The notes: generated by a model from the letters alone, not told the origin. 60,966 nt of DNA from a virus (IMGVR_UViG_3300044998_000129:1-60966); one strand, 5' to 3'; counted from the first letter of the stretch, positions 672-60,673 are shown. Program-made: numbers and translations.

Positions 672-1377
672 CGATGGAAGGCTTTTTCGGGTCCGCAAGA
701 TCGTTCCAGCCGTCGAAGTCGAACGGCGGCACGTCGAGCGAAAACCAGCTTGGTCTGTCAAAGTGAGCCATCAACACGTCAAAGGAGCTGTAACCCTGGC
801 CACCGTATGAATAGAAGTCCGCTGGGTGCGCGGCTCCGGCCAATATAAACCGGCCACATTCGCTCCGAATGTTGAGTGAGATTCCAAAGTCGGACGGTCG
901 GTCGAAGTTTCTCATAAACGGCGAAACCTCGCTCATTTTATGGTATAGGCGTTCCAGCCCGATCCGGTTCCATCTTCCGAGGACGGACGGATAATCGAAA
1001 CGAGGATGGTGAATCCCGATGTGGCAGTGAAGCGATTCGACCCAATCGCGATAGGTTGCCAACGGCCACCGTGTCTGCCGGAGCTTCGCCAAGTATGGGT
1101 TCATTAGGTTGTGGACCGATCTGCGAGCCACAACGATGTTAGGTTCATCGCTGTTGCTTAGCAATAGAACTGCGCCTGCGATAAACGCGATGATCGCAAC
1201 GGAAGGCTGCCAATCGGTCGGAAACCGGACCATCCGGCGGACCTCGACCGGATCGTCCGCAAACCGTTTCAAAGGCCGATAATCAGCGTCCAAACGGCCT
1301 GAAACAACCCATAAATCCTCGGGGTTCTTGCGCTTTCGAACCCTCCTTTTTCGCGGTTCAAGGTTCAAAAATTCCAT
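652..1377 (-). CDS. Hypothetical protein, basic N-terminus, one hydrophobic segment
   Basis: About 241 aa, function not recognised. The N-terminus is very basic (RKRRVRKRK near residues 9-17). One hydrophobic stretch (SVAIIAFIAGAVLLL, near 60) could span the membrane, and the C-terminal half is rich in Asp, Pro and aromatic residues. The ATG at 1377 is chosen because GGGAGA lies just upstream; that Shine-Dalgarno-like sequence is itself part of the AAGTGGGA iteron array. Longer frames start inside the repeats. Fragments resembling the 3' part of the gene are repeated downstream (540-671). Confidence 0.5.
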   Translation of the reverse strand: MEFLNLEPRKRRVRKRKNPEDLWVVSGRLDADYRPLKRFADDPVEVRRMVRFPTDWQPSVAIIAFIAGAVLLLSNSDEPNIVVARRSVHNLMNPYLAKLRQTRWPLATYRDWVESLHCHIGIHHPRFDYPSVLGRWNRIGLERLYHKMSEVSPFMRNFDRPSDFGISLNIRSECGRFILAGAAHPADFYSYGGQGYSSFDVLMAHFDRPSWFSLDVPPFDFDGWNDLADPKKPSIAPFIFE

Positions 1378-1380
1378 TTC

Positions 1381-1695
1381 TCCCACTTTCTCCCACTTTG
1401 CACCCCCTTTTAATCCCACTTTATCTATAAATAAATCAATACTTTATATGTAATTGTATGTAAAGTGGGATAAGTGGGATTGCCGACTTTCGCGTAATTT
1501 TATAGAGGGGCCTAGAACCGCCCCCAGGCCCCCGGAGGGGGATTCTCCCACTTGCCGGGATTTTTCTCCCACTTTGGCCTAACCCATTGATTTCATTAAT
1601 AAAAAAGTGGGAGAAAGTGGGTGAAAGTGGGATAATTTGGCATTGACAGGCAGTCTAACCCATTGATTTTATTACACTTTTGCTTTCTCCCACTT
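1381..1695. repeat. AAGTGGGA iteron array
   Basis: Eleven copies of AAGTGGGA or its complement TCCCACTT lie in 315 bases, at 1381, 1391, 1414, 1463, 1472, 1546, 1567, 1605, 1615 (AAGTGGGT), 1625 and 1688, in both orientations. They sit in AT-rich non-coding DNA between the primase-helicase gene and the next minus-strand gene. Such clusters are typical of initiator or repressor binding regions. The binding protein is not identified. Confidence 0.75.
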
Positions 1696-1712
1696 TGATA
1701 ACCCATTGATTT
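1580..1712. repeat. Three copies of TAACCCATTGATTT
   Basis: The 14-base sequence TAACCCATTGATTT occurs exactly at 1580-1593, 1656-1669 and 1699-1712, always on the plus strand and interleaved with the AAGTGGGA iterons. It is a second repeat family in the same 695-base gene-free stretch (1378-2072), which supports a replication origin or a complex control region. Confidence 0.75.
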
Positions 1713-1777
1713 CAAACAATTTTGCCAAAATCCTTGACCAAACGATAAGCCCTACCACAGCCAAATCAGTTCAAAAC

Positions 1778-1799
1778 TCTTAGAACCAAGCAGGTTCTT
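1778..1799. terminator. Small inverted repeat
   Basis: AGAACC, a five-base spacer and GGTTCT followed by tttt make a short hairpin on the plus strand. It could be a weak terminator or part of the palindrome-rich control region. Low certainty. Confidence 0.3.
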
Positions 1800-1842
1800 T
1801 TACACGTCAAGACTCTAAAGCCCATTAAACCCACGGTGGCCA

Positions 1843-2080
1843 AGCCAACTTCTAGCACTATCAGTTAGCACTGTTAGAAGCCAACTTCTAACACTACCAC
1901 CCATATTAGAAGTCAACTTCTAGACTTATTAGAAGCCAACTTCTAGCTTACCTAGAAGCTAGCTTCAGACAGTATCACTTATATTAGAAGCCAGCTTCTA
2001 ACGCTACTAGAAGTTCACTTTAACAGCATTAAGCCAGCTTCTAACGCTACTAGAAGTTCACCAAGTCAGCTTCTAGCCTT
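1843..2080. repeat. TAGAAG/CTTCTA palindrome cluster
   Basis: Inverted copies of TAGAAG and CTTCTA recur about every 25-40 bases from 1843 to 2080. The best formed is the 18-base palindrome at 1874-1891 (TTAGAAG, four bases, CTTCTAA). The cluster runs into the 3' end of the primase-helicase gene. The regular half-sites suggest a multimeric DNA-binding protein; origin or operator use is inferred from context only. Confidence 0.7.
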
Positions 2081-4532
2081 CCCAAGCATCGCCAAAGGTG
2101 TAGAACTTTGTTCTAACTTGACCTGCGAGGACGACTTGATATTGCATCATAATGCTCTCACGAGTAACCTCGGTAAGCACTTCTGCTTTAATTAATTCTT
2201 GCAAAGTCTTTTCGATATGATCTTGCGTTGTCTTGCCTTGCTCGCTCCCTTGGAACGCAGCATTGTTTTTCAAATACCTTAGCAAAAATCCATGCGGGAT
2301 AACATGCTTCAGATCAACAACCGATTTTGGAACTCTATACTGTAGCCTGGTCGTCGGCTTCATCTTTACATATTGCCGAACGGCATCAACCATCGTTGCA
2401 AGTCGAATCATTTCACCGCCGCCGACTTCGCCATCCTCGACCATGTTGATAATGCGCTCGATGATCTTCAAACTAAAGTCACGAGACCAGTTCCAATGTT
2501 CAAGCGTGATCTTCGGGGTGATGTGATTTTCGAAGACAGCGAGATTGCAGGCGACCTTTAGGGCGTTGATCCAGATGCGGCTTAGATACTTTGACAGCAC
2601 GTCATTTTCATTCATGCGCCTTGTCATGAGTTCGTCAAACTCTTTCATAGCCTGCTTTACTTCTGGGGCTACTTCAATATCGACGACCTGATCTGGATTC
2701 ATCCTAAAGGCTTGCCATATGTCAGCTAGCCGGTTAATGATATATTCTGGTATTGGATAATGGATCGAGTTCGTGGGTTTGATGATCCCGTTATATTCGA
2801 TAATCATTATTCGCGCTGCGAGGCCGCTGTCTCTAACATGCCGCTTGCCGAGAAATTCTTTCATGTAGGTCGGCTGCGTGTCGATTATCATTGTGAAGAC
2901 TGGCCGATGGATAGAAGGCGTGCTATCGTCCTTGCTTGCATATTCTTTGGCGGCAATGGAAAAGTTTCTGCCGCCCATGTCGAACAGGCCGAGAAGCAAT
3001 TTCTTGATCTGACCGCCTTGGCCGAGGTCTTCACCAATCAGGCGTAGAAGATCATGGGCGTCTTCTTCGCTCATCGCAACGAGGGGATAAGGTGTTCTTG
3101 TGAATAGCTGCCGGAAGCCTGATCCGGAAGCTGGTATTTGATTGTCGAAGGTCTTCGACAAGTTCGGGTCAAGGGTCTTCACCGTCAAGGCATCCTTGAC
3201 GATTTGTTCCAGCATGACTTTCCTAGCCTGGCCTTTGCCTCGACCTGTTTCAGCCGACAGGAGGAAATATAGCTGAGGGCCAATGCTTCCGCATTGATAG
3301 CGCCTTGCACATAGACCTGAAATTAAATGCAAGGTGTAGGCTATTGCAAACTGACGAATTGGCTTCTTTGACATGTGATACATATACTGAGCCAACTCGC
3401 CTGTAATACCCGGTGGCCAAGGAAAATCCCATTCACCTTGACTTAGCTTGACTTCTTTGGGTAGAACTGATTCGGCGGCTTGGAGGGCCGCCGTTGATAT
3501 TTCGTTTTGAAGGACAGGGCCGATGGGTTCGCCGTTCACGCGCATGTTTGCGTATAGTTTGGCACCGAGTTCTTCATGGGCTTTGATGATAGCTTCGGGG
3601 TCGTCGCCGATTCGCCATCCGTAAGGAATTGCGATTGCACATCGCTGGGCGTAGGGTTCATTGTTCTGACAGTCTAGGCGGCAGAAAATATCGAAGGCGT
3701 CGCCCCATTCACGACCAAGCAATTCCTTGACGGTCGTCGATAGTGTGCTCCAGCCGCCGTCATTCCATACGCGCGTTGCGTATGATCCTGTCGTTTGCGA
3801 TGCATGGTGCCAATCCCGGCCACCGTTGTTCGTTTCAAAGCCGTGGCGGGCCAGCATGTATTCAATCGGGTAAAGGTGATTGAAGTTGCCGCGTTCGCGC
3901 CCTGGCTTTAGGACGGGTCGCTTCTCTTCCTCGGTCGCTAATTTCTCAGCGACAGCTTTAGTTTCATCAGACAAACGGTGGCCTGGTCGAAATAGATACG
4001 GGCTGCCTGGTTCATAATGGTAGGCGTAGTTTCCTCGTGGGTTGGGTAGGTAGCATATTTGATTCGGGCCTTGATTAACGCGATCTATTCCAAACCCGTA
4101 AAGTTCCAGTAAATCATTTAATGCAGTTGCGGCTGCTGAATAATAGATACCTGGAATTGGATTTGCAATAGGAATCAGAACTCTGTATTTGAAATTAGTG
4201 ATGCCATCGTGACTATATGTCGTGTAGATAAGAAACTCTGACTCGGTAATAGCCCGAACGGCTGCGGCTACCTCGTCAATAGTCGGTGGCCCTTTATCAA
4301 TATCTGCCCACAGTATCGGGAAGCTACCCTTTTCGAATTGAACAGATGCAGTTCGGGCGTTGAACTGATTATAGGTGCTAGGAATAATCCAAAAGCCGTC
4401 AGACTTGTCCCCTTGATAGTAAGGGGCCTTTGCAAATTCAACGATGCTTTTGAAATCTGTTGTATGGTATTCGACACCAGAATACAATTTAGTGTCGTGC
4501 TGACCCTTACCAGCGCATACTTGCAGATTCAT
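2073..4532 (-). CDS. Primase-helicase (AEP-like primase plus DUF3987-like ATPase)
   Basis: 819 aa. The N-terminal part looks like an archaeo-eukaryotic primase: an Asp-x-Asp pair at D77/D79 (WADIDKG) followed by YTTYSHDG and RVLIPIANP, as in phage and plasmid AEP primases. The C-terminal half resembles DUF3987-type helicases, with a variant P-loop AETGRGKGQ at about 427-435, where Gly replaces the usual Ser/Thr after Lys. The frame is open to 4667, but the ATG at 4532 has AAGGG upstream and starts the conserved part. It would start replication; its 3' end lies in the palindrome and iteron cluster. Confidence 0.75.
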   Translation of the reverse strand: MNLQVCAGKGQHDTKLYSGVEYHTTDFKSIVEFAKAPYYQGDKSDGFWIIPSTYNQFNARTASVQFEKGSFPILWADIDKGPPTIDEVAAAVRAITESEFLIYTTYSHDGITNFKYRVLIPIANPIPGIYYSAAATALNDLLELYGFGIDRVNQGPNQICYLPNPRGNYAYHYEPGSPYLFRPGHRLSDETKAVAEKLATEEEKRPVLKPGRERGNFNHLYPIEYMLARHGFETNNGGRDWHHASQTTGSYATRVWNDGGWSTLSTTVKELLGREWGDAFDIFCRLDCQNNEPYAQRCAIAIPYGWRIGDDPEAIIKAHEELGAKLYANMRVNGEPIGPVLQNEISTAALQAAESVLPKEVKLSQGEWDFPWPPGITGELAQYMYHMSKKPIRQFAIAYTLHLISGLCARRYQCGSIGPQLYFLLSAETGRGKGQARKVMLEQIVKDALTVKTLDPNLSKTFDNQIPASGSGFRQLFTRTPYPLVAMSEEDAHDLLRLIGEDLGQGGQIKKLLLGLFDMGGRNFSIAAKEYASKDDSTPSIHRPVFTMIIDTQPTYMKEFLGKRHVRDSGLAARIMIIEYNGIIKPTNSIHYPIPEYIINRLADIWQAFRMNPDQVVDIEVAPEVKQAMKEFDELMTRRMNENDVLSKYLSRIWINALKVACNLAVFENHITPKITLEHWNWSRDFSLKIIERIINMVEDGEVGGGEMIRLATMVDAVRQYVKMKPTTRLQYRVPKSVVDLKHVIPHGFLLRYLKNNAAFQGSEQGKTTQDHIEKTLQELIKAEVLTEVTRESIMMQYQVVLAGQVRTKFYTFGDAWEG

Positions 4533-5188: not shown

Positions 5189-5404
5189 ATGACACTCGTT
5201 GTTCGCTATGCGACGAAAAAGGACTTGGCTGCTTCCGTGGGCAAGCGCCTTCGCTACATCGAAACGTCGATGTTTGGTCCGGAATACAAGGATGACGGAG
5301 TTCTCACGGTGGCCGGTCGGCCTCACGTTCACGGAATTCCCAAGTCGCGCGAGTTTTTCGCGCAGGTGACGATGGAGAATGGCATCATCAAGAAGGTGAG
5401 GTGA
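5189..5404 (+). CDS. Small early protein of unknown function
   Basis: 71 aa, no family recognised. Mixed charge, no membrane segment or cysteine. The start at 5189 is fixed by a perfect AGGAGG eight bases upstream. It follows the structured RNA at 5119-5166 and is coupled to the next gene, whose ATG begins one base after its stop codon. Confidence 0.7.
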   Translation: MTLVVRYATKKDLAASVGKRLRYIETSMFGPEYKDDGVLTVAGRPHVHGIPKSREFFAQVTMENGIIKKVR

Positions 5405-7302: not shown

Positions 7303-7977
7303 ATGAACTTGACTGCGCTTTTCGAACGCTGGGCCACCGACGAAGGCAAGCCCTACAAAGGTCTCTTGATCGACTGGGATGCTTACAAAGCTAATCCTAA
7401 AGATGTGGGCTGCATGTGCGCGCAAGGTCAGATTCTTTATGAAGCTGGATGGACGCCCGAGAGGTTGAAAGATTTGCGTCAAGCTGAGGCTGATCTTGCG
7501 GTCGCCAAACTGCTGAACATTAGCCGCACTCATGCAGTTCTCTTGCGGATCGTTAACGATGGGACGGACGGTGCCCCCACTGTCGTTCTGACCGATCCTA
7601 GCAAAGTTCTTGGCGATCAGTGGAGTAAGATTCTCGATTTCTGGTGGCATCTGGATAGCATGACGGCGAGACAATGGGATGTTGCAGAAGCCGCCGCAGA
7701 AGCCGCCGCACTGGACACCACATGGGACTCTGTGCGGAACACCGCACAGGACGCTGTAGGAACTGCCGCACGGGATGCTGCATGGGACGCCGCAGAAGAC
7801 GCTGCACGGGTTGTCGCACGGAATGCCCCATGGGCCACCGCAGGAGCATCAAACGAAGTCCAAGGCGCTGACATTCTGCGGCGGGATGGAAAACCATTTT
7901 TCTTCCTGCCCGCGTTCGGGTTTGCCACTCCCGACAACATTCCGGCTCGTTCTGATAACTATGGTGTAGGAGGATAA
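7303..7977 (+). CDS. Protein with Ala/Trp/Asp-rich repeat region
   Basis: 224 aa. The N-terminal 120 residues contain GCMCAQGQ near 35-42, a pattern seen in small actinobacterial and proteobacterial phage proteins of unknown role. Residues about 125-180 are helical repeats with recurring DAAWDAAEDAA-type units, likewise common in phage proteins. The C-terminal 40 residues are Phe/Pro-rich. AAAGGAG precedes the start. No biochemical function can be assigned. Confidence 0.7.
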   Translation: MNLTALFERWATDEGKPYKGLLIDWDAYKANPKDVGCMCAQGQILYEAGWTPERLKDLRQAEADLAVAKLLNISRTHAVLLRIVNDGTDGAPTVVLTDPSKVLGDQWSKILDFWWHLDSMTARQWDVAEAAAEAAALDTTWDSVRNTAQDAVGTAARDAAWDAAEDAARVVARNAPWATAGASNEVQGADILRRDGKPFFFLPAFGFATPDNIPARSDNYGVGG

Positions 7978-10903: not shown

Positions 10904-10925
10904 CGGTGGCCGGGTTAGTGCCACC
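10904..10925 (+). terminator. Octamer-containing hairpin
   Basis: GGTGGC (10905-10910, inside CGGTGGCC) pairs with GCCACC (10920-10925), followed by ATTTC. The stem is only 6 bp. Confidence 0.45.
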
Positions 10926-11163: not shown

Positions 11164-11853
11164 ATGCCGCTTAATTGGAGCACAACAGACGTAGCTGGTT
11201 CTACGCATGGGATTAAAGCCCTTGTTTACGGAGCGGCTGGCTCTGGAAAAACGACGCTCTGCGGAACTGCACCATCACCGCTTATCATCAGCGCAGAAGC
11301 AGGTCTTTTGTCTCTTCGAAACAAGAAAATACCTGTCTTGGAAGTTAAGACAATTCAAGACGTTTGGGATGCGCTGACTTGGTGTCGTAATGAAGCAGCG
11401 AAAAACGGGATTAAAACAATCTGCCTAGATTCCGTTAGCGAAATTGTGGAAACAGTTCTTGCCAACGAAAAGAAGAAAACAAAAGATCCTAGATTGGCTT
11501 ATGGAGAGACGGCAACCCTAAGCATTGATCTAATCAAGTCGTTCCGTGATTTGGCAGGTTTTAACGTTCTAATTACTGCAAAGCAATCAAATACGACAGA
11601 TGCGATCACGGGAGTTTCTCGCGTTGGACCTACGGCTCCAGGTCAGCAAATTGGACCTGCGCTGCCGTATTTGTTCGATCTTGTGATGCACGCGGCCACC
11701 GACAAAGATTCGAACGGCAAGACTTTCCACTACCTACGAACGCACGCTTCGTTTAACGCAGAAGCTAAAGATAGAAGCGGTGCTCTGGACGAAATCGAAT
11801 TCCCTGATTTTACCGCAATCATAAATAAAATTCAGGGAGCATCAGTAAAATGA
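11164..11853 (+). CDS. Sak4-like RecA-fold ATPase
   Basis: 229 aa. Walker A GAAGSGKTT (about 23-31), a Walker B-like ICLDSVSE (about 86-93), and the length and position fit the AAA_24/Sak4 family of phage single-strand recombinases. They promote annealing together with an SSB encoded next door; here the DUF669 protein follows directly. AGGAGG precedes the ATG. The assignment rests on motif and context. Confidence 0.75.
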   Translation: MPLNWSTTDVAGSTHGIKALVYGAAGSGKTTLCGTAPSPLIISAEAGLLSLRNKKIPVLEVKTIQDVWDALTWCRNEAAKNGIKTICLDSVSEIVETVLANEKKKTKDPRLAYGETATLSIDLIKSFRDLAGFNVLITAKQSNTTDAITGVSRVGPTAPGQQIGPALPYLFDLVMHAATDKDSNGKTFHYLRTHASFNAEAKDRSGALDEIEFPDFTAIINKIQGASVK

Positions 11854-12575: not shown

Positions 12576-12601
12576 ACGGCCACCGTCACCCCGGTGGCCG
12601 T
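12576..12601 (+). terminator. Terminator built from an inverted octamer pair
   Basis: ACGGCCACCG (12576-12585) pairs with CGGTGGCCGT (12592-12601) across TCACCC, followed by CTTCT. Both arms contain the genome-wide octamer GGCCACCG in opposite orientation. Confidence 0.75.
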
Positions 12602-14242: not shown

Positions 14243-15196
14243 ATGCGGAAAATAGCCGTCGAAGAATTAAAAAAGCGCGTTGAGGCTGCAAGCAAAGAAC
14301 TTCTTGACGGGTTAGACGCTGAAAAGAAACGCGGCCATCTTGGAGCGAGCCAAATCGGCCACCGTTGCGCAAGGCAGGCTTGGTATAGCTTCCGTTGGTT
14401 CTACCGAGGACAGCATACAGCGCGGATGCTTCGTTTGTTTAATCGAGGCCATCAAGAAGAAGAACGAATAATCCGTTGGATGCGCGCGGCTGGATACAAA
14501 GTTCGCGAGCACAGTAAACGACTTGTTTATAGTTCTCAAATAGGCTATAATCTATTGGACTGGGACGACGATCTTGATTCATATGACGATGTATCAGACG
14601 ATCCCGCTCATATACTTATGGCAAAGAAACTAGGTCTTAAACTTCAACAGTTTGGCTTCGTTGCTTGCGATGGTCATTTCTGCGGATCGTGCGACGGAAT
14701 AGTTTCTGGACCGCACTTGCCTGATGGATGGGGACTAATCGAATTCAAAACAATGAACGACAAGGCGTTCAAAGACACGGTGGCCAAAAGCGTTCTATCT
14801 GCAAAGCCGATATATTGGATTCAAATGCAGATATACATGAACATGCTTAGTCTACCGTGGGCGTTATTTATTAGCGTCAATAAGAATGACGATGATCTAT
14901 ACTTCGAGATAGTAAATCATAAGCCAGAAGTTGCCGAACAATATATTAGCCTAGCGAAGTCAATCATCGACTCAAAACAACCACCACAGCGAATAAAGGA
15001 AGATCCTTCGTGGTTTGAATGTAAATATTGTGATTTTAGAGAAATATGTCATTACGACAAGCAACCTGACAAAAACTGTCGAACATGCCAGTATAGCACA
15101 ACAGCACCAGAAAGTAACTTCTATTGCGAGCTTCATAGAAGTAACATACCATATGACTTCCAGCAAACTGGATGCGATAAATGGTTTCCTCACTGA
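14243..15196 (+). CDS. PD-(D/E)XK exonuclease (Cas4/RecB-like)
   Basis: 317 aa. RecB-family nuclease motifs: D151 in CDGI, E167-x-K169 in GLIEFKTMN, and QMQIYM at 194-199. Cys residues at the N-terminus (HRCAR, about 41) and in the C-terminal tail (CKYCDFREIC, later CRTC, with more Cys) could hold an iron-sulfur cluster as in Cas4/AddB nucleases. It probably resects DNA ends for the neighbouring Sak4/DUF669 recombination pair. It overlaps the helicase start by 16 bases. Confidence 0.75.
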   Translation: MRKIAVEELKKRVEAASKELLDGLDAEKKRGHLGASQIGHRCARQAWYSFRWFYRGQHTARMLRLFNRGHQEEERIIRWMRAAGYKVREHSKRLVYSSQIGYNLLDWDDDLDSYDDVSDDPAHILMAKKLGLKLQQFGFVACDGHFCGSCDGIVSGPHLPDGWGLIEFKTMNDKAFKDTVAKSVLSAKPIYWIQMQIYMNMLSLPWALFISVNKNDDDLYFEIVNHKPEVAEQYISLAKSIIDSKQPPQRIKEDPSWFECKYCDFREICHYDKQPDKNCRTCQYSTTAPESNFYCELHRSNIPYDFQQTGCDKWFPH

Positions 15197-17007
15197 TCCC
15201 GCGTGATTATCAAATTGCGGCTGCACAAGCCCTGTGGAATCAAGTTCATAGTCGGCCAGATCAGAACCCACTTGTCGTTATGGCGACAGGGCTTGGCAAA
15301 TCGTTGAACATTGCTATGTTTGTTCAACAAATGCTGTATGCATATCCGCATGTTAGAATCATGGTCGTTACCCACGTCAAAGAATTGATCGAGGGAAACT
15401 ATCGGGCTTTGATGAACCTATGGCCTGGCGCTCCGGCGGGCATTTATAGCGCAGGTCTAGGTGTGCGCGAAACGCGCGCACAAGTTACTTACGCCGGAAT
15501 TGCCTCGGTGGCCAAACGGCCAGAGACTTTTCAGCGTGTTGATTTTCTTGTGATTGATGAGGCACATCGTATTAGTGATAACGACTCTGCGATGTATGTC
15601 CGATTCATTAATGGGCTCAAGAAAAAGAATCCTCATCTAATTACAATCGGATTTACGGCCACCGCGTTTCGAATGGGAATGGGTATGCTGACCGATGGTG
15701 AACTATTTGATGTTGAATGTTTTAATATCGGCCACGGCGAATCTTTTGTTTGGGCTATTGAAAACGGCTACTTGATGAAGCTAGTTCCTAAGCACCCTGG
15801 CTTTCAACTTGACGATAGTTCTATTGGAATTGTCGCGGGCGACTTTGACAATAAAGCTGCTTCACAAGCCTTTAAGGATCAAGACATTCTTGAACAAGCA
15901 GTTGATACAACTATTGCTTTCGGCGAGGAACAAAATCGTCGATCATGGTTGACTTTCTGTCAATCAATCGAAGATTCTGAATTGATTGCAGATATGTTTC
16001 GGTATAAGGGCTATCCAGTTGAGCCTGTTCATAGTAAACGGGATGATCGCGACGAGGTTCTTAAAGCCTTCAAAGAAGGTAAACTTCGTGGCGTAACGAA
16101 TAAAGATGTGCTTACAACAGGATTCGATCATCCTGGAATTGATCTGATCTCAATGCTGCGACTAACGCGGTCGCCCGGCCTATGGGTTCAGATGCTTGGA
16201 AGGGGAACGCGACCTGTGTTCGCTCCGGGCTATGATATTACGACAAAGGAAGGTCGGCTTAATGCTATTCTAGCAGGTCCAAAGCAGTCTTGTCTAGTGC
16301 TAGACTTTTGCGGCAACAGCGAAAGGCTTGGGCCTATCAATTATCCAACTTTTCCAAAACGGCGAAACTCTTCTGGCTCAGAAGATACGCCTATGCGGTG
16401 CTGCCCGCAATGTGCAACTTTTATTCATATCTCTATCAAAGTTTGCACAGAGTGTGGATATGAGTTTCCAGCGCCTGAAAAAGTCCGTCCAGAACCATCC
16501 GAAGCCGAGCTTGTAAAATCTCGTAACCAAACAATAGATCTAACTAAACAACCAGAACCAAAACAATTTGAAGTGTTTCCGGTTCATAGGATGATCTGTT
16601 CTCATAATATAGGAAAACGTGGCAAGCGAGATACCATGCGTGTTGATTATTTTAGCGGTGTTAGACGATTCAGCACCTGGGTTTGCTTTGAACATGAAAT
16701 TGGTAGCTTTCCTAGGCGCAAAGCTGAAGAATGGTGGCGCGACCATTGTGATTCTAAAAGCCTGGCACCTACTTCCGTTGAAAAAGCTCTTTCGTTTAGT
16801 TTGGACTTTGTTAAACCAAAGTTCATAAAAGTTTGGATAAATACAGAATATCCAGAAATCGTTGGATACGATTTTCGAGGAACTTGCTTTGAACTTCCAC
16901 CGGAAGTCGGAGGGCCTCCTTTGCAAGAGCCTGGTCCTGATCCAACCTTACCGCCACCTGCTCCGTCCTATCAAAACTATTTCGGTGATGACGATATACC
17001 TTTTTGA
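15181..17007 (+). CDS. SF2 DNA helicase with zinc ribbon
   Basis: 608 aa. Helicase motifs I (ATGLGKSL, about 37-44), II (DEAH, about 125), III (FTAT, about 159) and VI (QMLGRGTRP, about 340). A zinc ribbon CPQC...CTEC follows near 405-425, then a conserved C-terminal domain with WVCFEHE and RRKAEEWW typical of phage DEAD/DEAH helicases. Likely role in fork or recombination intermediate processing (UvsW/RecG-like use). Confidence 0.85.
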   Translation: MVSSLIPRDYQIAAAQALWNQVHSRPDQNPLVVMATGLGKSLNIAMFVQQMLYAYPHVRIMVVTHVKELIEGNYRALMNLWPGAPAGIYSAGLGVRETRAQVTYAGIASVAKRPETFQRVDFLVIDEAHRISDNDSAMYVRFINGLKKKNPHLITIGFTATAFRMGMGMLTDGELFDVECFNIGHGESFVWAIENGYLMKLVPKHPGFQLDDSSIGIVAGDFDNKAASQAFKDQDILEQAVDTTIAFGEEQNRRSWLTFCQSIEDSELIADMFRYKGYPVEPVHSKRDDRDEVLKAFKEGKLRGVTNKDVLTTGFDHPGIDLISMLRLTRSPGLWVQMLGRGTRPVFAPGYDITTKEGRLNAILAGPKQSCLVLDFCGNSERLGPINYPTFPKRRNSSGSEDTPMRCCPQCATFIHISIKVCTECGYEFPAPEKVRPEPSEAELVKSRNQTIDLTKQPEPKQFEVFPVHRMICSHNIGKRGKRDTMRVDYFSGVRRFSTWVCFEHEIGSFPRRKAEEWWRDHCDSKSLAPTSVEKALSFSLDFVKPKFIKVWINTEYPEIVGYDFRGTCFELPPEVGGPPLQEPGPDPTLPPPAPSYQNYFGDDDIPF

Positions 17008-18606: not shown

Positions 18607-18615
18607 GAGCCAGCT

Positions 18616-44052: not shown

Positions 44053-44058
44053 ATTCAA

Positions 44059-44280
44059 TTACTCCTTGGCAGAGGGGGCAGGGGCTACCTTCGGGGCAGC
44101 TTGGCGGGCGGTGTCCGGTTCCACGATCAAATCGTTATGAACTTCAATCAAGCGCATGATATAGGGCGTGCGCTGAACGGTTACAAAGCGGTCTTCAGGG
44201 ATCATATCGCCGCGAGGCGAGGTCCGTGCGACCCGACCGGGAGCGGCTTTGACCCGGATATTTCGAGAGTCCATTGCCAT
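44059..44280 (-). CDS. DUF2635-like protein
   Basis: 73 aa, with the KAAPGRVARTSPRGDMIPE and MRLIEVHNDL pattern of DUF2635, a small protein found just before the sheath in Mu-like phages. AAAGGA fixes the ATG at 44280. Confidence 0.65.
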   Translation of the reverse strand: MAMDSRNIRVKAAPGRVARTSPRGDMIPEDRFVTVQRTPYIMRLIEVHNDLIVEPDTARQAAPKVAPAPSAKE

Positions 44281-45720: not shown

Positions 45721-46388
45721 ACGGCATTATCCTTCAACGTTCGCCATATGTCAATCGCCCCCGATGCTAGAGCCGGATTATTGGCGTCCAAATTCAATGC
45801 CAAGGCTTGAGTAGAATTAGAACGACGAATAGCGTCACCGGGATTTTCGATCAAATGAGCAATATATTTAAGTGCACCTATTGCCAGTCCGGCTGGAAGA
45901 TCACTTTCCGTGCTATATCCAGCAACATATTGAATCTGAAGTTGTGCTTTGTCGCGGCACGGATTACAGCAACCAATTCCCATATCGCCGGGATGATATG
46001 CAATTCGGGCTTCGTTAGTTCCGACAACAACTGGAAGTCGTTCAATAGCCCGCGATGGATCGCCAAACAAATAGGCAAATGGCTCTGCAAATGGAAATCG
46101 TGTTTTATGAGTAAAATACCTTCCAGGCATCTCCCAGAACGAAAATGGTTGCTTTACAGGTTCAACAAGAACACGTTGGCCACCGAAGAACAAGCCGGTA
46201 TATTTCTCGGCTGCTTGAATGGCGGCTGCCCGGTAAAGCGAGAGTTGTTCATCTGTCACCGTAATGACATCTTCGGTTTTAGTATGCGTTCGAATGAGAC
46301 TTAGCGGCAATATCTTCTCAAAGTCGAAGCAACGACCTTTCATCGACGCCATATCATTCGTATCGGTGCGAGTGATTTCTCTAAGCAT
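45717..46388 (-). CDS. Head-tail connector (HK97 gp6-like)
   Basis: 223 aa. Helical connector pattern: LSLYRAAAIQAAEKYTG near 60 and QIQYVAGYSTESDLPAGLAIGALKYIAHL near 155-183 (with the usual LP..L..A). It binds under the portal. Confidence 0.8.
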   Translation of the reverse strand: MLREITRTDTNDMASMKGRCFDFEKILPLSLIRTHTKTEDVITVTDEQLSLYRAAAIQAAEKYTGLFFGGQRVLVEPVKQPFSFWEMPGRYFTHKTRFPFAEPFAYLFGDPSRAIERLPVVVGTNEARIAYHPGDMGIGCCNPCRDKAQLQIQYVAGYSTESDLPAGLAIGALKYIAHLIENPGDAIRRSNSTQALALNLDANNPALASGAIDIWRTLKDNAV

Positions 46389-47131
46389 CAGCTACAATCC
46401 CGGCACCGAATATCGAAGCACGATATGTGAAAATATCTATTCCGATCACAGTCGTTTGCAGGTTGCTTAATAGTAAGTCGATACTCGTCGCAAGGACGAC
46501 ACGACATTGGCATTGTAATCGGAAAACGAACTGTTTGCATTCGTTGATCCGTAATGACCTTTCCTAGGTCAATAAAAGGAACAAGCGACGTGTATTCGCG
46601 AGGAGGCAAACCGATAGTAGTGCCTACGCTCCAAACAATCGAACGAACAATCCAACGGCCTTGAGCATCAGTGATCTTAACCCAAGTTACATCCCATCCT
46701 TCAAATCCATTATTTGGAAAATATTGAACAGAAGGATTGTATTGACCACCGGGTTGCGTTACTACTCCATGATAAGGACCAGAAAGCGGCAAAATCTCAA
46801 ACTTGAAACTGTTTCCAGACGGTGTCAAGTTAACACCGATGTTAACACCAGAGCTAGTATTAACTGGAGTATTTGGAGCCTGATAGTTCGTATTCTGCGG
46901 TGGAGGAAAGCCATCAATATCGCCAGATGGACAATTCTCTTCGTTAGCGACAATATCAAAGTCAAACGTCGGAACAATTCCGGGGCTGCCAATCGGGAGA
47001 GACCATGGCGCGTAATTGATCTGCATGAGATTCGTCTCGCCCGGTCGAAGGCTAACTGGCAAGCAACAGCACGCATCGCAAACAGCACCGGAAGGGCCAC
47101 CGTCGCGAGGATCAACAGAGAAGTAGAGCAT
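46388..47131 (-). CDS. Cys-rich virion protein of unknown function
   Basis: 247 aa, not recognised. Cys clusters at both ends (CDACCCLP near 19-26; SCRPCDE, SCFDIRCRDC at the C-terminus) flank a beta-rich body. Lies between head and neck genes, so it is probably part of the virion. Confidence 0.6.
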   Translation of the reverse strand: MLYFSVDPRDGGPSGAVCDACCCLPVSLRPGETNLMQINYAPWSLPIGSPGIVPTFDFDIVANEENCPSGDIDGFPPPQNTNYQAPNTPVNTSSGVNIGVNLTPSGNSFKFEILPLSGPYHGVVTQPGGQYNPSVQYFPNNGFEGWDVTWVKITDAQGRWIVRSIVWSVGTTIGLPPREYTSLVPFIDLGKVITDQRMQTVRFPITMPMSCRPCDEYRLTIKQPANDCDRNRYFHISCFDIRCRDCS

Positions 47132-48611: not shown

Positions 48612-48633
48612 ACGGTGGCCCGAAGGCCACCGT
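48612..48633 (-). terminator. Capsid terminator made of inverted octamers
   Basis: On the minus strand ACGGTGGCC and GGCCACCGT form a perfect 9-bp stem closed by a C(UUCG)G tetraloop. Both arms contain the genome-wide octamer. It lies directly after the capsid stop codon. Confidence 0.8.
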
Positions 48634-50119: not shown

Positions 50120-50893
50120 TCAGAAAAGCCCTTTTAGTTCACCAATCAAGGTGTTAAGAGCGTTTATTTTCTCCTTCGCCACCTGGGCGGGTTGAGGCGT
50201 TTCCGCCGAAGCCGGTTTGAACAGCTCTAGGTTCTTCTTAACTACCTGAGTCAAGCGTGCTGCAACATTCCGACTTTTGACAAGCCCTTCGCGAACCAGC
50301 GCCTTTTCGAGCTCGGCAATAGAGGCAAACACCATATCTTCGTCATCGGTGTTTGATTCTTTTAGATAGGTCATTATTGCTTCCGGATTTCCAGGAAACA
50401 CGACCAACGAGATTTCTTCGAGTTCTCCTTTGTTGATCTGAAGATACTCGGTCTTATCAGGCGTTTGTTTGAATTCGTATTCTTCTAGATAGAAACCAAC
50501 CGAAAAGCTAAAGCCACCAACCATTTTAGCGGCTTCGTAAGCATCCCGAACATAGCTAATATTCAAATTCAATTGGGCTTCGATCCAAAGACGCTCGCCG
50601 CGCGTTTCCAAAATGCGAATAGCTCCGGCAGGCTTGTCTCGATCATGTCCGATGAGCAACTTAATTCCCTTTGGACCATTCAAGCCTTTACGCGCAATAG
50701 ACTCAGCAAAAGCGTTAACCATGACCACATGATTATAATAGTCAAGATCAGGCGTCGAAGCCCATCCCGCTATATAGCCGTCCGGCTTTTCGCCAAGCTC
50801 TTTCAGTTCAAAATCGGTGGCCGGAACATATTTCAGGTCCAGCCATTGCCGCCGAGCAGGGGCTTCCTTCTCAATTTGCCGTTTGCTGGTCAT
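50120..50893 (-). CDS. Prohead protease (S21 / HK97-like)
   Basis: 257 aa. LLIGHDRDKPAG carries the catalytic His (near 80) and GGFSFSVGF the Ser (near 127), followed by ELEEISLVVFPGNPEA as in HK97 proteases. AGGAG precedes the ATG at 50893. It overlaps the portal stop. Confidence 0.9.
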   Translation of the reverse strand: MTSKRQIEKEAPARRQWLDLKYVPATDFELKELGEKPDGYIAGWASTPDLDYYNHVVMVNAFAESIARKGLNGPKGIKLLIGHDRDKPAGAIRILETRGERLWIEAQLNLNISYVRDAYEAAKMVGGFSFSVGFYLEEYEFKQTPDKTEYLQINKGELEEISLVVFPGNPEAIMTYLKESNTDDEDMVFASIAELEKALVREGLVKSRNVAARLTQVVKKNLELFKPASAETPQPAQVAKEKINALNTLIGELKGLF

Positions 50894-52223: not shown

Positions 52224-53447
52224 TTAGATATACAAGACATCGGCGGCCTGTTCACCAGAGTAGGAAATTGTCAAATCTTCAACCGCATATCTTATGGCAT
52301 CAATACAATGATCGTTCTGATTAGGAGCCGGAAGAGGCAGCGGTTTTCCGTTAGGGTCTGTATGCCATTTATAGTCTCGGATTTCATCAGCTGTCACCGG
52401 ACAATCGGGCGAAATAACAAGCTCAAAACCTTGCAACCAGTTAATTCCATTTTTGACTGAACCAGCACCTTTTCTTGCACTGTGAATACTGAATCCCTTG
52501 GATTGTAGGTATTCAATTGTTTCAGGTCTTGCACTATCTGCGGTAATCGGCCAGTCACGAATTTCAGTAATGGTGTCCATCAGCGCGGGCAGGTCGCGGT
52601 TAGAAACTTTATAGCCTACAGCTTCTTCCGCAATATAGACAATACCCTCGTCTTCAAGCACATAGAGTTTAATGATGACGTTTGGGTCCGAGCCGTATCC
52701 AAAATCTTCACCAAAGCGAGGACGAATCTTTGGAGGAACATCAATTCGACCGACACGCCAGTTATCGAAGATCGCGACATCGGGATTTTCGTCGTAACCA
52801 CCTTCCCAGATATGAACATGCCGTTTTGGATTCTTCAGCGACCGGCGATATTCCGAGGGCATCCGGGTCTGCATGAAGTAGGGGTTATCTCGCCAGCTTA
52901 CTTTTCGGATATACGACCGTTCCGGAATATTAGCTCCACGAAAAAGATTATCAACTGGGTCTGTGCGATAGCGCGGATTCCACGACCAAATCATTCGCGA
53001 CCCTAGCGTCCGAACAGTCGGGATAATAATTTCAACCGACTTAGCCGTAAACATATGCGCTTCTTCGCCCCAGAAGATAGTGCAACCTTCCAAAGACTTT
53101 GCACTGTCGGGGTTACGATCCATACCAATGAAAGAGAATCTTGATCCAGTCGAAACGTTAACAAGTTCTCTTTCTGTTTCAGTAAAGAACGCTGACATAT
53201 TCATTTTCTTGATTTTAATTTGCAGCAGTTCTTTCACTGAGTCTTTGATCGAGTTTTGAAACTGACGACCGCAGACAATCCGCTCCTCTTTCTTACACGA
53301 AGCACCAATGATCGCTTCCCCAATACTATGTGACTTTGCGCCTCCACGGCCACCGTAGAAGGCGTAGTGCTCGATAGGTTCTTGGGTATCTGGAAACTTA
53401 CCAGTCCAAAGCGGTAGGTAAACTTCCGGAACGATCAAGTTATCCAT
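52224..53447 (-). CDS. Terminase large subunit
   Basis: 407 aa. Walker A GGRGGAKS at 33-40, Walker B TIFWGEEAHM near 124, and nuclease residues in DFGYGSDPN near 243, ITADSARPE near 303 and DHCIDAIRYA near 386. Belongs to the PBSX/Terminase_3 type. It pumps and cuts DNA. It is 5 kb away from the small subunit. Confidence 0.93.
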   Translation of the reverse strand: MDNLIVPEVYLPLWTGKFPDTQEPIEHYAFYGGRGGAKSHSIGEAIIGASCKKEERIVCGRQFQNSIKDSVKELLQIKIKKMNMSAFFTETERELVNVSTGSRFSFIGMDRNPDSAKSLEGCTIFWGEEAHMFTAKSVEIIIPTVRTLGSRMIWSWNPRYRTDPVDNLFRGANIPERSYIRKVSWRDNPYFMQTRMPSEYRRSLKNPKRHVHIWEGGYDENPDVAIFDNWRVGRIDVPPKIRPRFGEDFGYGSDPNVIIKLYVLEDEGIVYIAEEAVGYKVSNRDLPALMDTITEIRDWPITADSARPETIEYLQSKGFSIHSARKGAGSVKNGINWLQGFELVISPDCPVTADEIRDYKWHTDPNGKPLPLPAPNQNDHCIDAIRYAVEDLTISYSGEQAADVLYI

Positions 53448-55310: not shown

Positions 55311-56737
55311 TACACTCGCCTCAGCAAGGTTATCCGAACACCAACGCTCGGACCAATGACAACAACCTGAAGACTATCATTTAGAACAGCTTTTTCCTCA
55401 TTAACGCCACCCGAAGACATCGTTTCGTTTCCGTCCATCAGGAAGTTGACACCGTTAACAGTTAGCGCCGCAGAACCATCATTTGGGTCTCGATTTCGAA
55501 CTGTCCAAGAAACAAGGCCAGGAGTCGAAGAGATATTGATCTGAGCAGGTCCAGGGCCAAGCAGATCAATTACTTCGGTGCGAAAAGCAGGTGTCCTATT
55601 TTGCGTAGGATTGACAAAACTATCGCACGGACCGACTTCCGAATCTTCCGGTAGGGTAATAGCGTCGCCTGTGACGTAATCATGATCTTGAATAGTCACA
55701 AAGTCGCTGTTGAAGTCCTTGTGGAAGTAACGCCGAAACTTTGTTGGCCCTTGGAAAACACTACGAAGCAGTTCAAAGTTATTCTGGCCAACGAAGCCGC
55801 CGTAGGTTCCAATCGGAGTGATCGTTTGCGGCAAGCCCGGATTGATTACATAGGTCTCAATCGTGTTGGTGCCGTAGTTAGCAATGTGCAGAACGTCATT
55901 TTCGTCAAACGACATTCCAGCCCGGTTATTCCAGAAATTAGCCGGAAGCGTGATCGTGTCGAGCACATTACCGCTATTCGGATCACACTCGACAATCGTA
56001 TTAGAAGTGACTTCATCACGCATATAGAGGCGACCTTGGCTATTGAAAGCGGCACCGCCACCGCCAAGGTTCATATTAAACGAGCTAACCCAACGCAGCG
56101 TCAAGAAGCCAGTTGTCGGATTAAGCGTGTAAGCCTCAATCGTGAAGCCTGGACCTAGCGAACCAAAAGCCCAGATTTCGCCAGTCACAGGATTGAATGC
56201 AGAAGCCCGCCAAAATGTCGGGAAAGGAAGGCCACCGGAGAGCGGCAGAACCGATACGACCGCTGGCACACTCGGATCAACAACGGTGGCCTGCGATTGC
56301 GGAACCGTCTCTAGAAAATAGACAAGACCTGTGTCGTAGTCTTGAACGGCCGAATTAAGAGCTGAATCAAGTGTCGGTAAAACACCGGCCGTAAAGAATA
56401 CGTTGCCGCTGCTATCTCGAAGAGTTTCGCCAGTTACATAGCCATACACGCGGGCAGGAACTATGTATTCAAGGCATTGCACATCCGTGAAGTCGCCATC
56501 GCAGCTTCCCGGAGTCCAGACCCCGCCACCCGGAACAAGGGTGGCGAGGTCAATAGTGAACACAGCCGGCCGAACTCCATCCAGCGTGTAGCCAAGAAGA
56601 TAATCTTCGACTCCAACTTGGACTAGATAGTGGGCATACAGCGTTTGAGAAGGCAAAAGAATGTTATTGGGCGTGTAACACCCAAGAACAACTTTTTCCT
56701 CGCCTCTATCAGAACGCTGACCTGACGTAATACCCAT
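55310..56737 (-). CDS. Beta-propeller-like virion protein
   Basis: 475 aa. Repeated motifs such as FNPVTGEIWAFG, LNPTTGFL, FNSQGRLYM, CDPNSGNVLDTI and FDENDVLHIANYG, each about 45-50 residues apart, are typical of beta-propeller blades. The C-terminal 120 residues form a separate beta domain. Possibly receptor binding or a head appendage. Confidence 0.65.
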   Translation of the reverse strand: MGITSGQRSDRGEEKVVLGCYTPNNILLPSQTLYAHYLVQVGVEDYLLGYTLDGVRPAVFTIDLATLVPGGGVWTPGSCDGDFTDVQCLEYIVPARVYGYVTGETLRDSSGNVFFTAGVLPTLDSALNSAVQDYDTGLVYFLETVPQSQATVVDPSVPAVVSVLPLSGGLPFPTFWRASAFNPVTGEIWAFGSLGPGFTIEAYTLNPTTGFLTLRWVSSFNMNLGGGGAAFNSQGRLYMRDEVTSNTIVECDPNSGNVLDTITLPANFWNNRAGMSFDENDVLHIANYGTNTIETYVINPGLPQTITPIGTYGGFVGQNNFELLRSVFQGPTKFRRYFHKDFNSDFVTIQDHDYVTGDAITLPEDSEVGPCDSFVNPTQNRTPAFRTEVIDLLGPGPAQINISSTPGLVSWTVRNRDPNDGSAALTVNGVNFLMDGNETMSSGGVNEEKAVLNDSLQVVVIGPSVGVRITLLRRV

Positions 56738-57227: not shown

Positions 57228-58013
57228 TTACGAACGTTCAGTCCAATGGACATAGAACGATCCAGTGCTCGTGATGTTGGTCGGGAGGTTTGTAATCTCT
57301 TGGCCTTGCTCTGCGCTCCAAGTCCAAGAACCGGGCGGGGTTACAACCCCATCAATCGAGCCAAAATCATTGATGAAGCTAACTGTGAAGCTAACAACAT
57401 CAGTAGTCCCTGCGGCAAGGGCTAGATTGAATACGTTATTTGCTGGAAGAACGCCGGAAGCCCGCCACTGATTAGTTCGAACAACTGGGCAAACCCCGCG
57501 CACCAGATTAGGACCAGACGGCGGCGGAATAACAATTCCGTTTGCATCAGTCCAGTAAACAGTTCCGTTAGGTTGACCGTTTGACTTTACGATCCATTGC
57601 GTAACGTTCTGACCGTTATCGCACCAAGGAAGCGGATCACTTTCTAGATCAGCGTCAGGACATTGAACTAGATCGCTAAGCAGGCCACCGTAGGGCGAAC
57701 CGTCCAGATTGTAGGCCGTAGCCGTTGGAACACCCGCTGTCGAGTATGAAACGACGACAATGATACTATCGCCGGTGTTAGGATCGCAGCGGATGAACGA
57801 ATCAAACTCGTCAGTGCCTGGATCGCAGGGTCGCGTGCGAACGATCATGCCTTCCGGCCAAAGGACTTCAACAGTTTGGGTTGCCTGCCGAACCTGCGGG
57901 CCGTCGCACTCTTCGATAGTTACATTGAACGGAGTAGTGCCGCCTGTCGGACGAACCGGGAGCGAATTCGGGTCATTTGGTCCGCAAGGAGGATTGCAGG
58001 TGAGGTCAGACAT
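57228..58013 (-). CDS. Virion-region protein of unknown function
   Basis: 261 aa, Cys-containing N-terminus (CNPPCGPN) and a long beta-rich body with a terminal immunoglobulin-like stretch. Not recognised. The ATG overlaps the upstream stop. Confidence 0.6.
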   Translation of the reverse strand: MSDLTCNPPCGPNDPNSLPVRPTGGTTPFNVTIEECDGPQVRQATQTVEVLWPEGMIVRTRPCDPGTDEFDSFIRCDPNTGDSIIVVVSYSTAGVPTATAYNLDGSPYGGLLSDLVQCPDADLESDPLPWCDNGQNVTQWIVKSNGQPNGTVYWTDANGIVIPPPSGPNLVRGVCPVVRTNQWRASGVLPANNVFNLALAAGTTDVVSFTVSFINDFGSIDGVVTPPGSWTWSAEQGQEITNLPTNITSTGSFYVHWTERS

Positions 58014-59083: not shown

Positions 59084-59509
59084 CTAAAGTTGACGTAAAA
59101 GCTGGATCGGCAGGTTGATATAGTGATTTCCTAGCAAAACGCGGGCTTCGCCATCGCGTATTTTAACAATTCGCCCCAAAAGTTGCCGATACGGACCTGC
59201 TAAAACTTCGATAAAATCACCAATTTTGAACTGATTTTCGTCTCTAGATTCGTTAAGTAATATCTGAAGTTGTGAAAGCTCTTCACTACTAACAGTCTTT
59301 GGTTTATAGTCAGAACTGTATTCAAGAACTCGAGCCATAAAGCGCGAAGGACAAACCCTTCGCAATGATGGCCACCGTTGTGGCGGGATGAAAGCGTAGC
59401 CGGGCATCGCGGCTGCGCCGTCTTTTAGAGGAATCCATAGTTTATGATCGTCACGACCCCATATAAAGAAGTCGTATGTCATTCGACATCGAAGAACAGC
59501 GTAATCCAT
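59084..59509 (-). CDS. NusG-like KOW-domain protein
   Basis: 141 aa. Start DYAVLRCRM and AAMPGYAFIPPQ fit the NusG N-terminal domain; FKIGDFIEVLAGPYRQLLGRI near 97-117 is a KOW motif. NusG and RfaH relatives bind RNA polymerase and suppress termination. Located just ahead of the long late transcription unit, it may be its antiterminator. The ATG at 59509 overlaps the upstream stop by one base. Confidence 0.7.
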   Translation of the reverse strand: MDYAVLRCRMTYDFFIWGRDDHKLWIPLKDGAAAMPGYAFIPPQRWPSLRRVCPSRFMARVLEYSSDYKPKTVSSEELSQLQILLNESRDENQFKIGDFIEVLAGPYRQLLGRIVKIRDGEARVLLGNHYINLPIQLLRQL

Positions 59510-59829
59510 CAAGTTTCCCAAGGTGGCTTAATAACAGAATCTCCCGCAACCAGAACCGTTTTGACCGGAGCCTTAGCGGGAGCCGGAGCTCTTACAGGAG
59601 CTCTTACAGGAGCCTTAGTAGGAGCCAACCGGGGCGTCAACCGCCGCCCTGTAACAGGATCGCGCACTTCAAAACGGTCACCGTATTCCGTCAAATCGTA
59701 GAATTTTGGGAAGATGACGACACACCAGCCATTACCCGGTTCTAATTCAACCTTGGTATGCGCAATTCGTGTGTCGTCTAGCGCATCGGCCACCGTTTGT
59801 GCTTCTTGGCGTGTCTTGTAGAAGGTCAA
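59509..59829 (-). CDS. Hypothetical protein with Pro/Ala/Lys linker
   Basis: 106 aa. A 65-residue alpha/beta N-terminus (TRQEAQTVADALDDTR, GWCVVIFPK) followed by a repeat of APVRAP/APAKAP units. Function unknown. Overlaps the next gene. Confidence 0.6.
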   Translation of the reverse strand: MTFYKTRQEAQTVADALDDTRIAHTKVELEPGNGWCVVIFPKFYDLTEYGDRFEVRDPVTGRRLTPRLAPTKAPVRAPVRAPAPAKAPVKTVLVAGDSVIKPPWET

Positions 59830-60155
59830 TGCATGTGTCTCGAAACGATTTCACCAGCCTTGCGACCGACCAGCCAAGGCATGACGAAAGCCAGCCAGAG
59901 AATGAAGTATAGCCATGTGAAGATCACAAAGACCGCAACAAGCAGGCTGTCTGGAAAGTTGTCAGCCAAAAAGATGCCAAAAATAAGAAGAATCCAAGGT
60001 TGGTGATTCAACCGCCAAGCGCGTTCTTTTTTGAGGATAGCCTGCTCGCGATCGTAGGCTTCCAAAGCGGCTAAAAAGTTAGCACGAGCCTCAGGCGTTG
60101 CGGTGTGCCAGTGCTTCCGCGCGATGCGGATGTGTTTCTCTCTGAATTTGTCCAT
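59826..60155 (-). CDS. Membrane protein with two hydrophobic segments
   Basis: 109 aa. A polar helical N-terminus and two transmembrane stretches (WILLIFGIFLADNF, then LLVAVFVIFTWLYFILWLAFVM), ending in a basic loop. Function unknown. GGAG fixes the ATG at 60155. First gene behind the 60184 promoter. Confidence 0.6.
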   Translation of the reverse strand: MDKFREKHIRIARKHWHTATPEARANFLAALEAYDREQAILKKERAWRLNHQPWILLIFGIFLADNFPDSLLVAVFVIFTWLYFILWLAFVMPWLVGRKAGEIVSRHMH

Positions 60156-60183
60156 GATAGTTCTCCGTTGCCCACTATTGCCT

Positions 60184-60212
60184 AAGATAGCAAGGCTTGC
60201 GCCCCGTGTCAA
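60184..60212 (-). promoter_or_regulatory. Strong minus-strand promoter
   Basis: TTGACA, 17 bases, TATCTT on the minus strand, for the 59826-60155 and NusG-like genes. It overlaps a plus-strand promoter. Confidence 0.8.
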
Positions 60213-60225
60213 GCCGTGTTAAAAT
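60197..60225 (+). promoter_or_regulatory. Plus-strand promoter for the nuclease gene
   Basis: TTGCGC, 17 bases, TAAAAT. It overlaps the divergent minus-strand promoter almost fully, so only one side can be used at a time. Confidence 0.6.
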
Positions 60226-60250
60226 GCGCTATTGGCAGCGGAGTTGGAAC

Positions 60251-60673
60251 ATGGTCTTAAATTCAAAAGTAAAAGGCGCTAACGGCGAACGCGAGCTCGC
60301 ACAACTTCTTACAAGTTGGGCTCGAGAAATCGGGATTGAACTTGATCTGATTAGAAACCTCGAACAGGTTCGCTCCGGTGGCCACGATTTACTTGGTGTT
60401 CCGGGGCTGGCCACCGAGTGTAAGCGCGTTGAAGCCCTTGCCGTGAGCACTTGGTGGGGTCAAGCTCAGCGCCAAGCTAGAGAAGTAGGACTTCAGCCGC
60501 TATTGGCTTATCGACAAAATCGCAAGAAATGGCAATTTATCACTGAAACTTGGGTCTGGCCTTGCAAAACACGTCCGATTGTGATTTATATGGACGAAGA
60601 AGAAGCTAGAATTTGGTTTCACGGCCATTTAGTGCATCATTTTACTTTGCAGCAACAACCTAGCCGAGAGTAA
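60251..60673 (+). CDS. PD-(D/E)XK nuclease, Holliday-junction resolvase-like
   Basis: 140 aa. KGANGERELAQLL (about 8-20), GHDLLGVPG with Asp (about 45) and ECKRVE with E-x-K (about 56-61) match archaeal Hjc and related phage resolvase-like endonucleases. It may cut branched DNA before packaging. GGAGT precedes the ATG. Confidence 0.7.
   Translation: MVLNSKVKGANGERELAQLLTSWAREIGIELDLIRNLEQVRSGGHDLLGVPGLATECKRVEALAVSTWWGQAQRQAREVGLQPLLAYRQNRKKWQFITETWVWPCKTRPIVIYMDEEEARIWFHGHLVHHFTLQQQPSRE

Follow-up and report, generated by a model that had tools for sequence, protein, structure and literature searches.

Start-site choice and Okazaki fragment length have usually been studied with primases that use short words (GTC, CTG), which are far commoner than they are used. 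The gene 4 primase of phage T7, a DnaG-type enzyme, sets Okazaki start sites 1-6 kb apart at 5'-GTC-3' or (G/T)2GTC, with 504 copies of GTC in the lagging-strand region and no evenly spaced long word genome-wide. ORF904 of the archaeal plasmid pRN1 is an AEP primase fused to a helicase and reads the three-base site 5'-GTG-3' through its helix-bundle domain; this site forms no regular array. The PrimPol of the Nitratiruptor phage NrS-1 recognises two template sequences, 5'-TTTGGTTA-3' and, with greater efficiency, 5'-GTGG-3'; site binding has been reported for its type of helix-bundle domain (PMC8718748). Here we analyse an entire virus record (IMGVR_UViG_3300044998_000129:1-60966; 60,966 bases, the window in what follows), in which one octamer, GGCCACCG, recurs on both strands. 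The phage encodes an AEP-type (PrimPol-like) primase-helicase, and these octamers are very probably the sites that this enzyme recognises on the template and would use for lagging-strand priming.

Arrays of this kind share with NrS-1 an 8-nt template word, a phage AEP primase and a GTGG core, and one of the words found in the related Escherichia coli phage 9g, TGTGGTTA, is a single base away from TTTGGTTA. However, NrS-1 reportedly has only two site copies, at its genome centre, as opposed to about 20-80 evenly spaced copies in the arrays, and the window primase domain comes from another AEP branch. With T7 the likeness lies in the interval between Okazaki starts, with ORF904 in the fusion of an AEP primase with a helicase. 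The arrays differ from the T7 and NrS-1 sites in the length and copy number of the word, in being evenly spaced on two strands and in having lineage dialects. A limited search of the open-licence literature returned site studies of T7, ORF904 and NrS-1 and no description of a genome-wide evenly spaced array, nor did we find an open-licence paper on GGCCACCG or on phages Ssp-JY38 and Yong-L2-223.

Counted on both strands, GGCCACCG occurs 51 times in the window as an exact match (28 on the plus and 23 on the minus strand) and is the top 8-mer both by frequency and by enrichment. The original prediction, which had counted 50 copies against about two expected, was thus close: Markov models give 1.5 (order 0), 2.6 (order 3) or 6.9 (order 4). 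A model of order 5 fitted on the unmasked window expects 26 copies, a figure that is inflated because GGCCACCG itself trains the model. Once the sites are masked, the expectation falls to 1.45 (order 3) and 3.4 (order 5) with a maximum of 7 in 40 simulations, so that tens of copies are not predicted and a Markov artefact is ruled out. The copies are as follows, in window coordinates.

798..805, plus strand, GGCCACCG site
1064..1071, plus strand, GGCCACCG site
1834..1841, minus strand, GGCCACCG site, intergenic
3411..3418, minus strand, GGCCACCG site
3818..3825, plus strand, GGCCACCG site
3976..3983, minus strand, GGCCACCG site
4284..4291, minus strand, GGCCACCG site
5307..5314, minus strand, GGCCACCG site
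7332..7339, plus strand, GGCCACCG site
7833..7840, plus strand, GGCCACCG site
10904..10911, minus strand, GGCCACCG site, intergenic
11694..11701, plus strand, GGCCACCG site
12578..12585, plus strand, GGCCACCG site, intergenic, inverted pair with 12592
12592..12599, minus strand, GGCCACCG site, intergenic, inverted pair with 12578
14357..14364, plus strand, GGCCACCG site
14778..14785, minus strand, GGCCACCG site
15506..15513, minus strand, GGCCACCG site
15657..15664, plus strand, GGCCACCG site
18449..18456, plus strand, GGCCACCG site
20154..20161, minus strand, GGCCACCG site
20510..20517, plus strand, GGCCACCG site
23604..23611, minus strand, GGCCACCG site
24879..24886, minus strand, GGCCACCG site
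26141..26148, plus strand, GGCCACCG site
26302..26309, minus strand, GGCCACCG site
27319..27326, plus strand, GGCCACCG site
28165..28172, minus strand, GGCCACCG site
31402..31409, plus strand, GGCCACCG site
33059..33066, minus strand, GGCCACCG site
34789..34796, plus strand, GGCCACCG site
36042..36049, minus strand, GGCCACCG site
36773..36780, plus strand, GGCCACCG site
38021..38028, minus strand, GGCCACCG site
38467..38474, plus strand, GGCCACCG site
38848..38855, minus strand, GGCCACCG site
41424..41431, plus strand, GGCCACCG site
42987..42994, plus strand, GGCCACCG site
43644..43651, minus strand, GGCCACCG site
46178..46185, plus strand, GGCCACCG site
47095..47102, plus strand, GGCCACCG site
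48613..48620, minus strand, GGCCACCG site, intergenic, inverted pair with 48625
48625..48632, plus strand, GGCCACCG site, intergenic, inverted pair with 48613
50815..50822, minus strand, GGCCACCG site
53348..53355, plus strand, GGCCACCG site
56230..56237, plus strand, GGCCACCG site
56284..56291, minus strand, GGCCACCG site
57683..57690, plus strand, GGCCACCG site
59370..59377, plus strand, GGCCACCG site
59788..59795, plus strand, GGCCACCG site
60376..60383, minus strand, GGCCACCG site
60409..60416, plus strand, GGCCACCG site

That protein coding does not account for the copies, as had been claimed from their phases and orientations, is borne out. Predicted genes contain 45 of them, with every phase and either orientation represented, and six are intergenic, a genic share that roughly matches the coding content of the window (91 %). 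The peptides favoured at the genic sites are tolerant ones (e.g., AT, GG, VA), and permutation of synonymous codons within genes leaves 9.3 ± 1.8 copies, six of them being the unshuffled intergenic ones, which rules out coding bias as the cause of the excess. One-mismatch variants each occur 0-9 times in the window, and therefore all eight positions of GGCCACCG matter. A simple expectation-maximization motif search settled on codon periodicity instead and was discarded. Tandem repeats are ruled out as a source since the arrays at 19-228 and 9442-9590 consist of other words; both are GC-rich, the former, near the left end, being built from CGGCCCGCCCTA and the latter, within the gene 8965-9828, from CCTACGGCCACG. 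Between the window and the related genome G006, 5 of the 15 alignable sites are identical, compared with 9 % for similar words. Site positions thus mostly turn over, and their inheritance by descent is rejected. The two intergenic inverted pairs of the window (12578-12599 and 48613-48632, with loops of 4-6 bases) resemble uptake words that double as terminators; overlapping inverted pairs (CGGTGGCCACCG) are seen in G006 and G004.

The sites are placed strand by strand, at Okazaki-like intervals. Mean same-strand gaps in the window are 2.2 and 2.7 kb, with coefficients of variation (CV) of 0.62 on the plus strand (p 0.004) and 0.65 on the minus strand (p 0.019), and successive sites change strand more often than chance allows (36 switches vs 25.3 expected, p 0.001). 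Across genomes the same-strand CV is mostly 0.25-0.65 against 0.95 for random placement, and the combined p for per-strand evenness over 20 genomes is about 1e-17 (plus) and about 3e-21 (minus). The most regular examples are VpKK5, with CVs of 0.25 and 0.28 and same-strand gaps of 1.3 to 4.0 kb, and the plus strand of E. coli phage Halfdan (CV 0.17). In the same genomes, the spacing z is -2.32 for the motif and on average +0.30 for 25,647 control 6-mers, which, unlike the motif, are slightly clustered. Permutation of strand labels shows that evenness is a property of each strand and not of the pooled positions (z -4.7). Moreover, imperfect sites in the window fall preferentially into same-strand gaps (p 0.004); all 9 genomes compared show this tendency, with p <0.05 in 5. 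Per-strand evenness fits a process that acts on a single strand at any one time and does not tolerate long gaps, whereas a double-strand mark would not need it. Long site-free stretches confined to one strand, the other remaining regular, are present in phage 9g (over 12 kb, L328:24739-37128) and on the plus strand of G018 (17 kb, 27165-44277); they may mark the direction of fork passage.

Enrichment extends to related phages, where the word takes the form of dialects. When polymerase relatives were scanned for their most enriched dispersed 8-mer, CCAC-containing words recurred (TGTCCACA, TGACCACA, TGGCCACA, TAACCACA and CCACAGGG); as a positive control, the same scan retrieved the established uptake word of Pasteurellaceae in the bacterial loci L081 and L088. 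All motif-bearing genomes with a locatable primase share one fast-evolving primase-helicase family, and the word follows the clade of this enzyme in the 22 genomes whose primase could be classified. Clade I, that of the window, goes with GGCC[ACT]CCG (7/7 genomes), clade II with T[GA]NCCACA (13/13, weakly in Me-ZS1 and G023) and clade III with TGCCACAG (2/2), each of the 22 carrying solely the word of its own clade. The degenerate clade I word follows from more distant virus records that share the module, namely G006 (47 copies of GGCCACCG), G010 (30 copies) and G011, in which 26 copies of GGCCCCCG stand beside 23 of GGCCACCG; in clade II, phage 9g has T[GA]ACCACA 47 times in 50 kb. The family words are absent from G026, G027, G028 and G030, four phages that lack a primase of this type, as well as from Milano and two records with a Milano-type primase (G038, G039).

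The association also held in prediction. Four named isolates, previously unexamined and chosen solely for their clade II primase, all contain T[GA]NCCACA, with counts that are 3.6 to 15.6 times those expected. The preferred octamer of Halfdan, TGCCCACA, reaches 20 copies vs 0.2 expected, and the corresponding counts are 18 vs 0.4 in Kharn, 17 vs 0.3 in Epa40 and 40 vs 2.5 in CA8 (TGACCACA). The word is thus tied to the primase clade and not to the host or to other genes. The primase-helicase of G006 (L029:3002-5506) is 28 % identical to that of the window in the AEP domain, 39 % in the linker and 15 % in the helicase half; a window-like primase half is thus joined to a diverged helicase half, possibly by a domain swap, and the dialect is that of the window. 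In G024 (L318-L320), which has a weak primase relative only, CAGCAACA reaches 33 copies vs 4.1 expected, evenly on both strands, and is possibly a further dialect. The dispersed word GCCCCAAG of G038 (L341-L344; 42 copies vs 3.5 expected), a genome with a Milano-type primase, is not evenly spaced; it was rejected as an array member and belongs to something else.

The window genes that bear on these observations are listed below.

2073..4532, minus strand, primase-helicase (PHROG 3022 DNA primase, Pfam DUF3987), proposed octamer reader
14243-15196, Cas4/RecB-type exonuclease
15181-17007, ResIII helicase
17866-21747, deazaguanine DNA-modification module: radical SAM (QueE-like), QueC, QueD-like, FolE, DpdA-like transglycosylase
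21756..22718, plus strand, sliding-clamp-like processivity factor, same replication module as the polymerase (PHROG 947, 1e-57)
22715..24742, plus strand, family A DNA polymerase (Pfam DNA_pol_A 1.8e-67, PHROG 17), presumed to extend the primers

RNase H, large terminase, portal and capsid genes are found as well. On the coding strand of the structural gene 28580-29878 there are GC-rich direct repeats, CGGACCCGCTGGGCCGCC, perhaps a collagen-like stretch. The closest named phages are only 48 % identical (Synechococcus phage Ssp-JY38 for the terminase, Microcystis phage Me-ZS1 for the polymerase), and relatives of the large terminase in bacterial genomes reach at most 42 % identity over the matched stretch.

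The primase-helicase comprises an N-terminal AEP/PrimPol-like domain (residues ~1-235), a linker region and a C-terminal AAA+ helicase half (~346-819). Foldseek searches with its AlphaFold model return MCM-type helicases and the AEP domain of S-2L PrimPol. With residues 1-350 modelled alone (mean pLDDT 83), the latter is the best match (6zp9, prob 1.00; TM 0.57 by target length, a remote relationship with 11 % identity), the next being the LigD polymerase domain, and an AEP fold is accordingly predicted for the N-terminus. Motif A (hhhDhD; DhD) appears as LWADID at residues 74-79, both Asp residues being invariant within the clade, while motif B (SxH) is clear in clade II proteins only. The clade II enzymes are homologous to NrS-1 over the primase and helix-bundle domains (PDB 6a9w, E 3e-38; blastp down to 1e-25), and PF22763 is matched in that of a Stenotrophomonas phage. 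In comparison, the profile of the window and clade I primases finds neither the NrS-1 family nor any PDB entry by sequence, and hhalign aligns clades I and II over the helicase half only. To judge from sequence, the window domain lies outside the NrS-1-type family, on another AEP branch.

Read as template, the clade II words become 5'-TGTGGN[CT]A-3', that of 9g 5'-TGTGGT[CT]A-3' and that of the window 5'-CGGTGGCC-3'; for the primases of Halfdan, 9g and the window, in this order, the template-strand words are TGTGGGCA, TGTGGTCA and CGGTGGCC. The template bases directly 5' of the site are enriched in C, which is compatible with primers that start with G. We infer that the reader is the primase itself and that Okazaki fragments start at the sites. 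When the passing fork uncovers the lagging-strand template, the primase domain would halt at an octamer and synthesise a primer immediately 5' of it, which the phage DNA polymerase would then extend into an Okazaki fragment. Selection would keep a site about every 2 kb per strand, wherever proteins tolerate it, because a site-free stretch would leave long single-stranded DNA. Since the array occupies both strands, forks probably pass in both directions, and with a site sequence that drifts along with the primase each phage lineage would come to have its own dialect. A small neighbouring DNA-binding protein may help the primase to read the site. In NrS-1 (L349:17205-17440), two copies of TGTGGTTA and one of TGTGGTCA are clustered, besides TTTGGTTA, just downstream of the primase gene; this cluster is perhaps part of the origin.

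Several points weigh against the primase as reader. NrS-1 reportedly has just two copies of its own 8-nt site (PMC7102993). The window primase domain is without sequence similarity to that of NrS-1, so that the biochemistry is transferred on the strength of fold and genome pattern and not of homology. The strand taken to be read (GTGG, not CCAC) is assigned by likeness to NrS-1 and ORF904. In the first genomes, the dialect patterns were picked after the enriched words had been seen, a choice in which spacing played no part. Spacing is uneven on the minus strand of G006 and in G004. In G033 (L331:13602-16334), which has a clade-I-like primase with a linker 21 % identical, no octamer array was found; this is the sole clear exception and is unexplained. 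Finally, the small DNA-binding gene that lies beside the primase in several phages could encode the actual reader.

In this last case, the small protein would read double-stranded sites and then recruit or load the primase-helicase, which we regard as improbable. Directly beside the primase, Me-ZS1, the Stenotrophomonas phage and Epa40 do have a 'DNA-binding domain protein' or 'transcriptional regulator' of 62-69 residues, and in Halfdan this place is taken by an unnamed gene of 67 residues. However, no such gene was located in the window, per-strand evenness is needless for a strand-blind mark of double-stranded DNA, and the NrS-1 enzyme alone recognises its site on single-stranded templates (PMC8718748).

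Somewhat less credible still is a phage version of Chi, in which the exonuclease-helicase pair (14243-15196 and 15181-17007) would use the octamers to protect or recombine broken ends. The two genes sit in the same module, and Chi sites are GC-rich, asymmetric and strand-specific. Nevertheless, the dialect tracks the primase clade, NrS-1 offers an independent biochemical match for the sequence, and an even 2 kb spacing per strand suits priming better.

The original prediction had left the role of the octamer between a replication or packaging mark, a host-matched uptake or recombination signal, a protein-binding site and a context preference of the DNA-modification enzyme. The replication mark has gained from the primase-clade link and the per-strand spacing, whereas the host signal and the modification context are not supported. 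That the word is the sequence context of the DpdA deazaguanine enzyme is very unlikely: the QueE, QueC, QueD, FolE and DpdA-like genes are indeed present in the window (17866-21747), but the motif occurs without dpdA in G018, no deazaguanine genes are annotated in Halfdan, Kharn and Epa40, and G026, G027, G028 and G030 have dpdA without the motif.

We give equally little credence to a host-matched signal, be it a DNA uptake sequence, host Chi or a HIP1-like host word. All of these are short words strongly over-represented genome-wide, and the density of the octamer resembles that of uptake sequences. They are, however, set by the host, whereas the word studied here goes with a phage gene and is evenly distributed strand by strand. 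The E. coli phages 9g and Halfdan have different words, T[GA]ACCACA and TGCCCACA, and neither is the E. coli Chi word, GCTGGTGG (PMC8022716); 50 kb of E. coli K-12 show no enrichment of the family words, including those of these two phages. Conversely, T[GA]NCCACA is common to phages of E. coli, Vibrio, Pseudomonas, Stenotrophomonas and Sphingomonas, and is thus sorted by primase and not by host. The Ssp-JY38 word is absent from a 40 kb stretch of pAQ7, a plasmid of PCC 7002; this strain is listed as the host of Yong-L2-223, a phage matched identically to JY38. A HIP1-like palindrome linked to host methyltransferases does not fit, as GGCCACCG is not palindromic and no methyltransferase was found among those window proteins, a part of the total, that were scanned. 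Programmed nick or packaging marks are likewise very improbable, for although motif-linked nicks occur in other phages, the best-mapped nick motif lies on one strand and unevenly along the genome (PMC11780129), unlike the even two-strand arrays described here.

Priming by the phage primase at these octamers would give Okazaki synthesis a map of its own. It is rather likely that the near-constant intervals between primase start sites on each strand fix fragment boundaries by the genome and not by chance, and that this map is rewritten to a new dialect when primase specificity changes. As the word is 8 nt long, roughly as frequent as the fragments and even on each strand, priming positions become predictable base by base, and the predictions can be checked in a phage that is easy to handle, such as Halfdan or 9g in E. 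coli. If true, the specificity of an uncharacterised phage primase could be read directly from its genome. A primase relative is present in 455 phage records, and with 266 named phage records in which a relative spans 80 % or more of the clade II primase, a paired protein-DNA dataset for the evolution of specificity would also become available.

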